From Gemmatimonadota bacterium (lineage in GTDB: Bacteria; Gemmatimonadota; Gemmatimonadetes; Longimicrobiales; Gaopeijiaceae), in the NCBI GenBank assembly GCA_022823225.1, contig JAJDXM010000079.1, positions 1-64,000 on the forward strand: a DNA stretch of 64,000 bases. The letters are read 5' to 3'. The translations under genes and the position numbers were made by a program. This document shows, in pieces, positions 3,080 through 28,220 of this stretch; positions within the stretch are counted from its first letter, which is position 1, and every line of letters starts with the position of its first letter. Under the pieces are notes generated by a model. That model made no database searches. It saw nothing but the letters and a program-made list of their open reading frames with translations, and had not been told where the DNA came from.

Positions 3080-3660
3080 TCGCCCCGTTTGGCACTGGTA
3101 TGAACGAGCCCGCCGACGGGACGATTGTCGTCGATTCCTTGCTCCACCATGAAGTCCCTCGTCGTTTCAGCCCGCTGGCTCTTGATCTCGGCGCTGATCC
3201 TCATTCTCGCGACGCCGTAGGTCGGAGGGAATTCCTGCTTCGCCTTCCGGTATTCGCCCGAACGCATGAGCCTGCTCACCGATTGTACCGCCAGCCCGGT
3301 CTCCCGGCGTCGCTCCTCAGCCAGGGGCCCGAACACTTTCCCGTCCTTCATTGGCTTGTCGAAGGCATATAGCCATTCCGTAGACATCTCATCCTCGGAG
3401 AAAAGGTGGACGCCCAGCGGTCGGAGATCGTCCTGGAGGCCGCGGACCATCTCAACAATGTTGTCGACGGTTTCCACTCTATAGGAGGCGCGCTTATCCC
3501 GTTTTTGATCGTACTGCCAGGACTGCTGGAGGAACGAAATCTCCCGCGCGATGCCAACCGCTTCGTCCCGCAGCATCCTGAAGCGACGCTTCTTGTTGAC
3601 TCGGCAGTACAGCCACCTGACTCCGGCCCAGATCGGACCCCCCAGGGACACCACCGACAC
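3076..3660 (-). CDS. Unknown protein coupled to HEPN-like gene; possible interrupted 5' end
   Basis: The open frame from a GTG at 3660 gives 194 residues with a hydrophobic N-terminus (about residues 1-18) followed by a basic stretch, then a charged helical body. It may be a membrane-anchored partner of the HEPN-like protein, whose start it overlaps by ATGA. No family is recognised. The best translation signal is further upstream: AAGGAG and an ATG at 3708 in the same frame, separated from this frame by a TAG codon at 3688-3690. The gene may therefore be a recent nonsense mutant, or may use a weak internal GTG. Confidence 0.55.
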   Translation of the reverse strand: MSVVSLGGPIWAGVRWLYCRVNKKRRFRMLRDEAVGIAREISFLQQSWQYDQKRDKRASYRVETVDNIVEMVRGLQDDLRPLGVHLFSEDEMSTEWLYAFDKPMKDGKVFGPLAEERRRETGLAVQSVSRLMRSGEYRKAKQEFPPTYGVARMRISAEIKSQRAETTRDFMVEQGIDDNRPVGGLVHTSAKRGE

Positions 3661-3793
3661 CGTGGCAAGATTTCGGGTGATCGCATCCTAGATCAATGAC
3701 AAGTCCATCGCACGCTCCTTTCGTGTGCTCGATTCTGTCCGTCTACGAGGGTGACTGGTCTGCGCTTCAGGTACTGCCGGCCAAGCAAGGCAG

Positions 3794-18155: not shown

Positions 18156-18172
18156 TCCCATTCCTCCCATCA

Positions 18173-18216
18173 GATTTGTTGGCAACGATTTTGTTGGCAA
18201 CAGAAATGTTGGGAAA
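18173..18216 (-). promoter_or_regulatory. Three-unit GTTGnCAAC array upstream of ATPase operon
   Basis: The palindrome GTTGGCAAC occurs at 18178-18186 and 18193-18201, with a half unit GTTGGG from 18208. The spacing is exactly 15 bp and the intervening 6-base spacers are AT-rich. The nearest unit ends 22 bp before the start codon of the minus-strand ATPase. An array of the same motif and period precedes the paralogous gene at 25716. A tandem operator for a dimeric regulator is the natural reading. Confidence 0.65.
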
Positions 18217-18858: not shown

Positions 18859-19076
18859 CTACCGGGCGAACAGATCTGGGACGTGAGGTGGAAGCGGCTC
18901 TGGGCGAAGTGCTTGCCCATGTGCGAGGAGAGGCGTCGCTCCCGTGCAGAACGGTTGGTGAGCCTGCGGTGGAGCGCACGTCGGCGGTTGACCGTCAGCG
19001 ACCGCGGTCGCTGAAGCGCGACGGCGATGCATCGGACAGCGCGTTCGACGGCCGCCGCCGGAGAAAATCCCCATGA
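18855..19076 (+). pseudogene. HigA-like antitoxin fragment, copy 2
   Basis: As in copy 1, a TTG overlapping the Rpn stop opens TDLGREVEAALGEVLAHVRG, here followed by SLPCRTVGEPAVERT, further into the usual N-terminus of this antitoxin type. From about residue 45 the sequence no longer resembles an XRE helix-turn-helix, probably because of a frame change. The frame runs on by chance to 19076, touching the DUF2283 start. Confidence 0.5.
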
Positions 19077-25664: not shown

Positions 25665-25703
25665 ATACACAACAAATCGGTTGACAACGAATCTGTTGTG
25701 TGT
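25665..25703 (+). promoter_or_regulatory. GTTGnCAAC array and promoter of STAND gene
   Basis: GTTGACAAC at 25680-25688 is flanked at exactly 15-bp steps by a half unit ACACAAC (ending 25673) and a half unit GTTGTG (starting 25695), with AT-rich 6-base spacers. TTGACA at 25681-25686 is a perfect -35 hexamer, and TATCTT 16 bases later is a plausible -10, so the array would overlap RNA polymerase. The coding start is 12 bp after the last unit. The layout matches 18173-18216, in the same orientation relative to the gene. Confidence 0.65.
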
Positions 25704-25715
25704 ATCTTCTGGTCC

Positions 25716-28220
25716 ATGGCCACCCAACCCGTCCCAGCCATCCGCAAGTTCAACCCCGGCCTCTTCCAGTCGGATCAGGAGGTCAGGAAGCAGTTCGTGG
25801 TCCGCAATCACGAACTCGGTCTCCTGCTCGATGACCTTCGGAGCAACATCAGTTCCCCATCGTGCCAGCACATTCTCGTAGTGGGGCCGCGCGGGCGGGG
25901 TAAGACCATGCTCCTTGCGCGCGTCGCGGCAGAGCTGCGCAGCAACGGGGAATTCGCCGGTTCGCTGCTGCCGGTTCGGTTCATGGAAGAGAGCCCGGAG
26001 ATCTTCGGTCTCACAGACTTCTGGCTGGAGACCTTGTTCCATCTGGCCAACGAGGTCGATGAGCACGATGCCGCGATGGCACGGCAACTCCGCGACACCC
26101 ACGCTACGCTGTCATCGCGGTGGCGGGAGCAGATCACCGTGGCGCAGGCCCGCGCTGCCGTGCTGGACGCCGCGGATCAACTGGGGAAGCAGCTCGTTCT
26201 CTTCGTGGAGAACCTGCAGTCACTCCTCCGGGACGCTCACGACGATTTTGCCTGGCAACTTCGCGAAGTCCTTCAGACCGAACCGCAGATCATCCTGCTG
26301 GCCTCGGCCACCAGCCGCTTCCGCGAATTGGACGACGTTGCCGAGCCGTTCTTCAAAATGTTCCGCATCGTCGGGCTGGGGCCCCTGAACACCGAGGAGT
26401 GCGTTCGCCTGTGGGAAGTCGTGAGCGGGAGACGGGCGAGCCAGTCCGAAGTCAGGCCGCTCCATATCCTCACGGGCGGCAATCCTCGCTTGCTGGTGAT
26501 GGCGGCCGAGTTTGCGCGTCATCGTTCCGTTCGTCGGCTGATGTCCGAGCTGGTCACCATGATCGACGAGCACACCGAGTACTTCCGAGGTCACCTGGAG
26601 GCCCTGCCCAAGACGGAACGGCGTGTGTACGTGGCGGTGATCGACCTCTGGCAGCCCTCCTCCGCGAGCGAAATCGCGGCCCGGGCGCGCGTGGACATCC
26701 GGGTGGTATCGACCATGCTCGGGCGGCTGGTCGAACGCGGGGTGGTCGTCCGGCAGGGTTGGGGCCGGAAGCGGCTGTACGCCGCCGCCGAGCCATTGTA
26801 CAGCATGTACTACAAGCTGCGGCGGGAGCGGGACGACGCTGCGGTCGTGGAGAATCTGATCCGGTTCATGGTGGCGTGCTATGGGGTTGGGGATCTATGG
26901 AAGTTCTCGGTGTGGCTGACCGGTGTGGCGGCGGAGTCGGAAGCTCTACGACGCGGAATCCGGCAGGCGCTCTTGAGCAGACCGCCCCTCGGCGACTGTC
27001 TTGTCGACAGGAAGTGGGATGCCATCCAACGGGCTTCGGAACATGCGAGGACCCGCGTGGAGGCCAAGGCGATCGAGGACCTGGAGAAAGCCGTTGCGGC
27101 GGCGGTTGACGCGGAAGAGTTCGAAAGAGTCATCGAGCTCGTGGACGAGGATCTCTCGTCTCGATCACAGGAGACCCAGGAGCCCCCGACTGATTCGTAC
27201 ACTGCGTGGACGAGGTATCTGAAGGCGTTCGCCCATGAACAGTTGGGGAATGCGCGCGCCGTACTGGCGCTCTCCGACCAGGCGGTGGGGCTTGCTAACA
27301 GCCGCGACGAGATGGTCCAACTGTGGACGGCCCTGACGCTGGCCATGAGGGGAGGCGCACAGCACAGCCTTGGCGACCATGTTGCCGCCATTGGGACCTG
27401 TGACGAATTCATGCGTCGGTTCGGGTCCTGGCATCATGACCGATTTGAAGCGGCGATCGCGGAGACGCTTGTGACGCGCGGGTGCTGCAAGGCGCATCTT
27501 GGCGACCATCCCGGAGCCATCCGTGACTACGACGATGTGGTGGTTCAATTCGACGGTACCCGTCACCCCGAAACCCAACCGAGCATCGTAGCCGCGCTGA
27601 TGAGTAAGGCCCTGACATGCCGGCGCCTCGGCAACATCGAAGAGGAGATCCGCAGCTACGATGCTGTCATCGCCCGCTTCCAATCCTCTGATGTCCTGGA
27701 CCTCCGGCGGCAAGCGGCGGTCGCCCTGAGCTGGAAGTGCATGGCGCAGGCCGAATCCGGCCTTGCTGACGAGGCTCTCGTAAGTTGCAAGAGGTTGGAA
27801 GAGACAGTTCGAACCTGGCCCGGGAATAGGGAAGATCTCTCGGCGGGACCTTGGGTCGAGTGGTTGGCTTGGCGCGCCGAGAGTGCCCGGTCACTGGCCC
27901 TGGCCGTCCAGAAGAACCATCGGGCTGCGCTGGACTCGTTTCAGGCTGCCTACGCCGTGTTTTTTCCCGACGATGAAGTGACGATGCGGGAGATGCTGGA
28001 TCTGGTGGCCAACTTGGTCGCGAGAGGTGCGGCGCCCCATGACCTGTTGGCCGTCCTCTCGGCCGACACCGCCAAATCCGCGAGCCTGCGTCCGCTGATC
28101 GTCGCCCTGCACCAGCGCGCGGGCGACCGGGTGCGCGCTCCGAGGGAAGTCCAGGAGGTGGCTGTCGATATTCGTGGGCGGTTTCGCGAGGCTGAGGAGC
28201 GGATGGGAGTGGTGCGGTGA
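25716..28220 (+). CDS. STAND-like ATPase with winged helix and TPR repeats (paralogue)
   Basis: The 834-residue protein is a paralogue of 14387-16885 over its full length. Shared features are the NPGLF/NPGFL start, P-loop GPRGRGKT (57-64), KQLVLFVEN Walker B-like strand, PQIILLASATSRF sensor, SASEIAARARVDIRVVSTML winged helix (about 325-360) and C-terminal TPR-like helices (about 480-720), ending in a VQEVAVDIRGRFREAEE helix. The first ATG at 25716 fits the promoter spacing. Unlike its paralogue it has no upstream ATPase_2 partner. The shared operator array suggests one regulator controls both loci. Function is unknown; regulation or defence are the likely classes. Confidence 0.75.
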   Translation: MATQPVPAIRKFNPGLFQSDQEVRKQFVVRNHELGLLLDDLRSNISSPSCQHILVVGPRGRGKTMLLARVAAELRSNGEFAGSLLPVRFMEESPEIFGLTDFWLETLFHLANEVDEHDAAMARQLRDTHATLSSRWREQITVAQARAAVLDAADQLGKQLVLFVENLQSLLRDAHDDFAWQLREVLQTEPQIILLASATSRFRELDDVAEPFFKMFRIVGLGPLNTEECVRLWEVVSGRRASQSEVRPLHILTGGNPRLLVMAAEFARHRSVRRLMSELVTMIDEHTEYFRGHLEALPKTERRVYVAVIDLWQPSSASEIAARARVDIRVVSTMLGRLVERGVVVRQGWGRKRLYAAAEPLYSMYYKLRRERDDAAVVENLIRFMVACYGVGDLWKFSVWLTGVAAESEALRRGIRQALLSRPPLGDCLVDRKWDAIQRASEHARTRVEAKAIEDLEKAVAAAVDAEEFERVIELVDEDLSSRSQETQEPPTDSYTAWTRYLKAFAHEQLGNARAVLALSDQAVGLANSRDEMVQLWTALTLAMRGGAQHSLGDHVAAIGTCDEFMRRFGSWHHDRFEAAIAETLVTRGCCKAHLGDHPGAIRDYDDVVVQFDGTRHPETQPSIVAALMSKALTCRRLGNIEEEIRSYDAVIARFQSSDVLDLRRQAAVALSWKCMAQAESGLADEALVSCKRLEETVRTWPGNREDLSAGPWVEWLAWRAESARSLALAVQKNHRAALDSFQAAYAVFFPDDEVTMREMLDLVANLVARGAAPHDLLAVLSADTAKSASLRPLIVALHQRAGDRVRAPREVQEVAVDIRGRFREAEERMGVVR

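Follow-up and report, generated by a model that had tools for sequence, protein, structure and literature searches.

The analysed window is a stretch of 64,000 nt of a Gemmatimonadota contig (JAJDXM010000079.1). On its forward strand, P0001 (25716-28220) encodes a STAND NTPase of 834 aa that combines an AAA_16/NACHT domain (Pfam, 1.2e-10 and 1.2e-5, respectively), a TrmB/MarR-like winged helix-turn-helix (wHTH) and a TPR-like C-terminal region. The wHTH covers residues 299-360 (26610-26795, forward strand), matches Pfam TrmB (1.2e-5) and the MarR-family chain 2fa5 (E=0.003), and carries a basic wing, GRGRKR, that is conserved in the wHTH alignment of the A class described below. It is the proposed DNA-reading domain, with P0001 as the proposed reader of the array upstream of the gene. 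The motifs GPRGRGKT and GGNPRLL are present in the STAND alignment. TPR repeats are clear in the paralogue P0002 and its relatives and weak in P0001, for which the TPR assignment rests mainly on these relatives. Compared with its closest orthologue (L074), P0001 shows a dN of 0.07 and a dS of 0.24 (dN/dS ~0.29), i.e. the solo gene is under purifying selection.

A putative operator array with an orthologous footprint precedes P0001 at positions 25667-25701 of the forward strand. Its sequence is ACACAAC-AAATCG-GTTGACAAC-GAATCT-GTTGTGT, and 28 of the 35 positions obey dyad symmetry. The array consists of two tandem CAAC-N6-GTTG dyads with ACA/TGT flanks, namely CAACAAATCGGTTG (25670-25683) and CAACGAATCTGTTG (25685-25698), both recovered from the sequence and a genome scan and assigned to neither strand. 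The units are 1 base apart, which gives a 15-bp step, and the half-sites likewise fall at 15-bp steps. An earlier note on this DNA had placed an operator array with such steps at 25665-25703. Array and step are both present; the wording of the repeat as ACACAAC...GTTGTG is correct as sequence, and the unit had to be corrected to CAAC-N6-GTTG, as the arrays start with CAAC and end with GTTG. The 35-bp pattern occurs a single time in the window and in none of 100 dinucleotide shuffles, and a control search with the reversed pattern gave no match. For the exact 29-bp array, the chance expectation at this base composition is ~6e-6 per window and 4e-4 per genome.

The array overlaps a sigma-70-like promoter (25681-25708, forward strand), in agreement with the earlier note. 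Its centre holds TTGACA (25681-25686), which is the -35 box of the P0001 promoter and is followed by a 16-bp spacer and the -10 box TATCTT (25703-25708). In a promoter scan, TTGACA-16-TATCTT reached a score of 10/12, with none found in 50 shuffles. The ATG of P0001 lies 7 bases past the -10 box and, judged from this distance, the transcript is probably leaderless. An RNA element or attenuator was considered for the A-type array and rejected: with the -35 box inside the array, its left half lies upstream of any transcript. An Rfam search of the window returned no match.

The second array of the window is located at 18165-18214 on the reverse strand and reads CCCAAC-ATTTCT-GTTGCCAAC-AAAATC-GTTGCCAAC-AAATCT-GATGGG. 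It is of the C type, with CC/GG flanks, and comprises three dyads (18168-18181, 18183-18196 and 18198-18211) as opposed to two at 25667-25701. This array is conserved in the orthologues L005, L006 and L008. It lies just upstream of P0003 (16902-18155, reverse strand; start picked from homologues), an ATPase_2/AAA_22 ATPase and gene 1 of the C-type operon. Gene 2 of this operon is P0002 (14387-16885, reverse strand), a STAND NTPase with wHTH and TPR and a paralogue of P0001 (34% identity over 855 columns). In BLAST, P0003 shares no similarity with P0001 beyond the P-loop. The assertion that the same array stands upstream of a STAND paralogue therefore needs a partial revision: the array is indeed shared, the gene that adjoins it at 18 kb is P0003, and the paralogue P0002 comes second in the operon. 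The usual unit is an operon of a P0003-like gene 1 and a P0001/P0002-like gene 2; P0001 is a solo gene 2. A DUF2283-like gene (start MKLHYYPET), some 0.9 kb away from the 18-kb array, runs from window position 19073 onward on the forward strand, and a similar gene start adjoins an orphan array in another genome (L156, see below).

Relatives were sought within the family and then in a named set of about 85,000 species genomes. The operon is found in about ten phyla in all, namely Gemmatimonadota, Acidobacteriota, Latescibacterota, Pseudomonadota, Chloroflexota, Chlorobiota, Rhodothermota, Thermodesulfobacteriota, Myxococcota and Synergistota, as well as in one Phycisphaerales genome; most genomes compared are metagenome-assembled. 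A strict array, defined by ≤1 mismatch in 16 fixed bases, is present at the operon promoter in 38 distinct loci, compared with ~50 homologous loci that have >300 bases upstream. Inside the counting box are 34 of these loci, one or two of which may not belong to the ~50-locus set. The arrays of the other four (L075, L084, L096 and L107) fall just outside it, as the mechanically called ORF begins too far upstream. Two more arrays, a second one in L088 and an additional one in L075, also lie outside the box and are not accounted for by a misplaced ORF start. Unit spacings among strict arrays are 15 and 30 bp, and shuffled upstream sequence yielded no strict array in 20 repeats. The array is typically located just upstream of the first gene, that is, about 1310-1380 bases before gene 2 when gene 1 is present. 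Of the loci left without a strict array, most show looser dyads or a single unit, or their upstream region is cut short. L089 and L122, two diverged gene-2 loci whose upstream region is available, have no dyad, and both look truncated.

The upstream comparison that the earlier note had called for thus shows the array in front of homologous genes elsewhere, and its distribution characterizes it as a putative operator that travels with the gene family. A recent duplication of the segment was rejected as the source of the likeness between the two window arrays: the flanks are unalignable, the proteins share 34% identity, and each type has its own orthologues in other genomes.

The promoter overlap recurs among the relatives. 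Counted in the gene direction, the centre base of A- and T-type arrays is A in 23 of 24, which makes TTGACA; the one exception, with G, is the additional, distant array in L075. Most A- and T-type arrays have a -10-like hexamer 16-18 bp past TTGACA, e.g. TTGACA-17-TATATT in L083, and this hexamer is TAAATT in L082 and L085. In C-type arrays the centre base is C in nine and G in five. The deep C-type members L109, L113, L118 and L129 have dyads on both sides of a TTGACA promoter. Operator sites on or around the core promoter are a hallmark of repression.

More distant or differently organized loci carry other repeats. A Moraxella relative with 22% identity (L134) has three TTAACTAT-N6-ATAGTTAA units, the middle one of which contains a TTGACT -35 box; in this locus (L134:2665-2745, Moraxella osloensis plasmid pNP7-2) a set of three palindromes of the TTAACTATAAAATTATAGTTAA type is arranged in tandem across the promoter at a 27-bp step. 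L127 and L128 (28% identity) have TTTGCGC-type repeats. In an acidobacterial locus (L086, ~3650-3740) the layout is inverted across the promoter region, GTTGACAAC-AAAATTGATATC-N9-GATATCAGTTTT-GTTGTCAAC.

Gene 2 is the likeliest candidate for the reader of the array, since the array persists without gene 1 in a single-contig genome and on two plasmids. In the single-contig genome (G058), gene 2 is preceded by a perfect array, and a profile search at E<=1e-4 detected no gene 1; among the genomes compared, the absence of gene 1 is firm in this one only. Plasmids of Agrobacterium (L132) and Sphingobium (L133) carry a solo gene 2 with dyads, and a search of the plasmids found no gene 1. In L046, L079 and L054, gene 1 is a remnant. 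Among the solo gene-2 loci (the window, L074, L077, L084 and L075) the alignment is restricted to array and promoter; almost nothing can be aligned 5' of the array, except in the near-identical L075/L084 pair and along a short window/L074 stretch. The wHTH of gene 2 matches the TrmB and MarR DNA-binding families. It occupies the place where Apaf-1-type STAND proteins bear a non-DNA-binding winged helix. Autoregulation by the winged helices, which the earlier note had raised as possible, gains strength from the arrays kept where gene 1 is absent and is now the best-supported mechanism.

Alternatively, gene 1, or a complex of gene 1 and gene 2, could read the DNA, with the solo loci as relics. 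In nearly all phyla gene 1 is the gene closest to the promoter, and it resembles the archaeal Walker ATPases 2fna/2qen. However, a Pfam search of gene 1 gave no HTH match, and intact arrays and purifying selection on gene 2 are seen in lineages without gene 1, which makes this reading unlikely.

Further evidence on the reader comes from the base outside CAAC, which is clade-specific and defines three classes: A (25667-25701), C (the 18-kb array) and T. The two window loci accordingly show A-CAAC...GTTG-T and C-CAAC...GTTG-G. On a maximum-likelihood tree of gene 2, the flank class changes twice in 47 labelled rows, which is the minimum (shuffled mean 20.2), and host phyla are mixed on the same tree. 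The classes are kept distinct in genomes with several operons, namely in the window genome, G173 and G098 (A and C), G061 (A and T), G349 (C and T) and G346 (T, T and C). The element thus changes with the protein it travels with, which suggests that the reader is encoded in the operon and argues against one regulon. Within the wHTH, the recognition-helix positions 329 and 334 discriminate the operator classes; class-discriminating columns there amount to 1/22 and 1/10, i.e. no enrichment, in a covariation test that has low power because just two class changes exist.

The earlier note had concluded that the two loci share a control element and form one regulon. The first part holds, as a CAAC-N6-GTTG array is found at both loci, linked to the promoter and conserved in homologues. 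One regulon is not supported and was rejected on the basis of the flank classes, each conserved with its own protein clade and distinct within one genome, together with the genome-wide scan. As each clade has its own flank specificity, the sequence comparison points to separate, parallel self-control circuits at the two window loci. Cross-talk between them may occur via the shared CAAC core.

The genome (4.19 Mb in 97 contigs) contains three copies of the exact 29-bp array, where 0.0004 would be expected by chance. Two of the occurrences are those at P0001 (25667-25701 locus) and at the C-type operon (18183-18211). The third, found in the search for further arrays proposed by the earlier note, is an orphan T-type array on contig 35 (C35:90142-90170, L130). 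The syntenic locus in G064 is a full T-type operon of gene 1 and gene 2, and the homology between the two stops exactly at the array. Beyond the C35 array lie a TIGR04255-like gene and a helix-turn-helix gene, both named by eye. Similarly, the array of L149 is followed by pieces of a decayed gene 2; both this array and the one on C35 remain from operons that were lost or have decayed. In L075 (genome G139), a C-type array at 3644-3672 precedes the A-type solo gene by ~1.3 kb, and no C-type genes were detected at this site; the array is probably also left over from a lost operon. Exact arrays for which no operon was detectable are L147:5058-5086, L154:4228-4256 and L156:6016-6044, the last ~40 bases before a gene whose product resembles DUF2283. 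These three could be fossils or trans targets, and given the exact arrays that stand without an operon (C35, L147, L154 and L156), a trans target for the array is possible.

The orphan arrays, and the core common to all classes, would also fit an unlinked host regulator that reads CAAC-N6-GTTG and joins both loci in one regulon. Yet genomes contain one to a few arrays, nearly all on these operons, the flank bases are clade-specific and distinct inside one genome, the array moves between phyla with the operon, and two of the orphans, C35 and L149, are operon remains. Such a regulator is therefore regarded as quite improbable.

Taken together, the array is most likely the place where the ATPase shuts off its own gene. 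We consider it likely, from the sequence evidence, that it acts as a self-repression operator to which the wHTH of the STAND protein itself binds cooperatively, with one circuit per flank class. P0001, or a dimer or oligomer thereof, would read X-CAAC-N6-GTTG-X' via its internal winged helix. Each dyad, with half-site centres 10 bp and hence one helical turn apart, would accommodate one gene-2 dimer, and two to four dimers would fill the array cooperatively at the 15-bp step. The bound protein would cover the -35 box and block its own transcription, and ligand sensing by the TPR region together with the nucleotide switch would relieve or strengthen binding. The clades A, T and C would each have their own flank specificity.

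Two readings of the array assume other functions. STAND proteins such as MalT are activators, and the protein could likewise activate via the array, as MalT does at its boxes; here, however, the sites are placed at the -35 box or enclose the core promoter from both sides, instead of preceding it, and activation has a low probability, comparable to that of the unlinked regulator. That the array is a transposon end or a site of recombination or insertion, as suggested by its position at the 5' edge of homology between solo loci and the exact stop of the C35/G064 homology, is highly improbable and largely refuted by the promoter embedding. The asymmetric centre base is tuned to TTGACA and the -10 spacing, no operon has a matching copy on its 3' side, and no integrase or transposase is constantly linked (phage integrase in 3 of 89 neighbours).

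The neighbours of the operon are mixed and include some defence genes; among 89 neighbours, no conserved neighbour or effector gene was found. A phage or plasmid origin was rejected, with no relative in the phage records and viral contigs searched and six plasmid records with a relative. Both plasmid copies of the solo gene 2 adjoin nucleotide-cyclase (Pycsar-like) genes. In the Agrobacterium tumefaciens plasmid pAtCFBP7129a (L132:3905-3986), a divergent operon faces the solo gene 2 and comprises genes for two nucleotide cyclases and a ThiF-family protein; the dyads occupy the intergenic region between them, and the array could control this operon as well. In the Sphingobium baderi plasmid (L133:1043-5413), the solo gene 2 has as neighbours a nucleotide-cyclase gene and one with the annotation Pycsar effector. 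From this genomic context, a defence role of the operon is plausible. A more far-reaching and tentative proposal, on balance doubtful, is that a STAND immune-type sensor serves as its own repressor: it would sit as a cooperative oligomer on the array until an invader-triggered nucleotide switch frees the promoter, a neighbouring defence operon would be under the same array in some hosts, and the A, T and C flank codes would keep the circuits apart.

Many immune sensors belong to the STAND NTPases, a large class of switch proteins, and little is known about how bacteria keep the expression of this class down. The locus ties a cis element to its probable reader across about ten phyla, and the three natural specificity classes make both the reader and its code accessible to direct testing. 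CAAC-N6-GTTG-N-CAAC-N6-GTTG at a promoter further provides a DNA signature for finding the family.

Gene 2 belongs to the STAND NTPases according to its AAA_16/NACHT P-loop, the wHTH after the NTPase, a GxP-type motif and the C-terminal repeats. Within this class its family is unnamed and uncharacterised: PADLOC and NCBIfam gave no relative above the P-loop, wHTH or TPR level, the PADLOC matches to known anti-phage systems are weak and partial, and hits of a literature search for the motif look like primers. In MalT-type STAND regulators, the NTPase and helical sensor repeats are coupled to DNA binding at repeated boxes. MalT, however, is an activator with a C-terminal LuxR-type HTH, for which no family match was found in Pfam or NCBIfam, whereas in the present family the wHTH comes immediately after the NTPase and the promoter is covered by the sites.

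A mobile two-gene operon with two STAND-like NTPases is described in the available part of PMC8195603, which mentions no operator. In that operon, one NTPase has eroded and forms a fusion with GT4 or HEPN effectors; in the present family, by contrast, both P-loops are conserved, gene 2 ends in TPR, and no GT4 or HEPN domain was matched. BrxR and CapW (PMC9122601, PMC9122588) are WYL repressors of defence operons, i.e. dedicated regulators carried with mobile defence-type genes. No WYL domain was matched in the present family, and sensor-ATPase and repressor would be one protein.

The closest mechanistic precedents, by analogy and with a family match to neither, appear to be NanR and type Ia ParA. 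Dimers of the repressor NanR (PMC8012715) bind side by side on a short tandem repeat operator; NanR differs in being a GntR-family protein without ATPase that controls catabolic genes from a (GGTATA)3 repeat. Type Ia ParA (PMC8465637) is a deviant-Walker ATPase whose primary site consists of two hexamers 28 bp apart, as opposed to a STAND protein with 14-bp dyads at 15-bp steps. ParB and a centromere belong to ParA systems and are not found here, where the partner gene encodes an ATPase_2 protein, and Pfam and NCBIfam gave no ParA-family match. Like the protein proposed here to repress its own gene cooperatively, type Ia ParA is an ATPase with a winged HTH, and it represses the two-gene operon that encodes it, with several dimers bound cooperatively to overlapping inverted repeats across the promoter.
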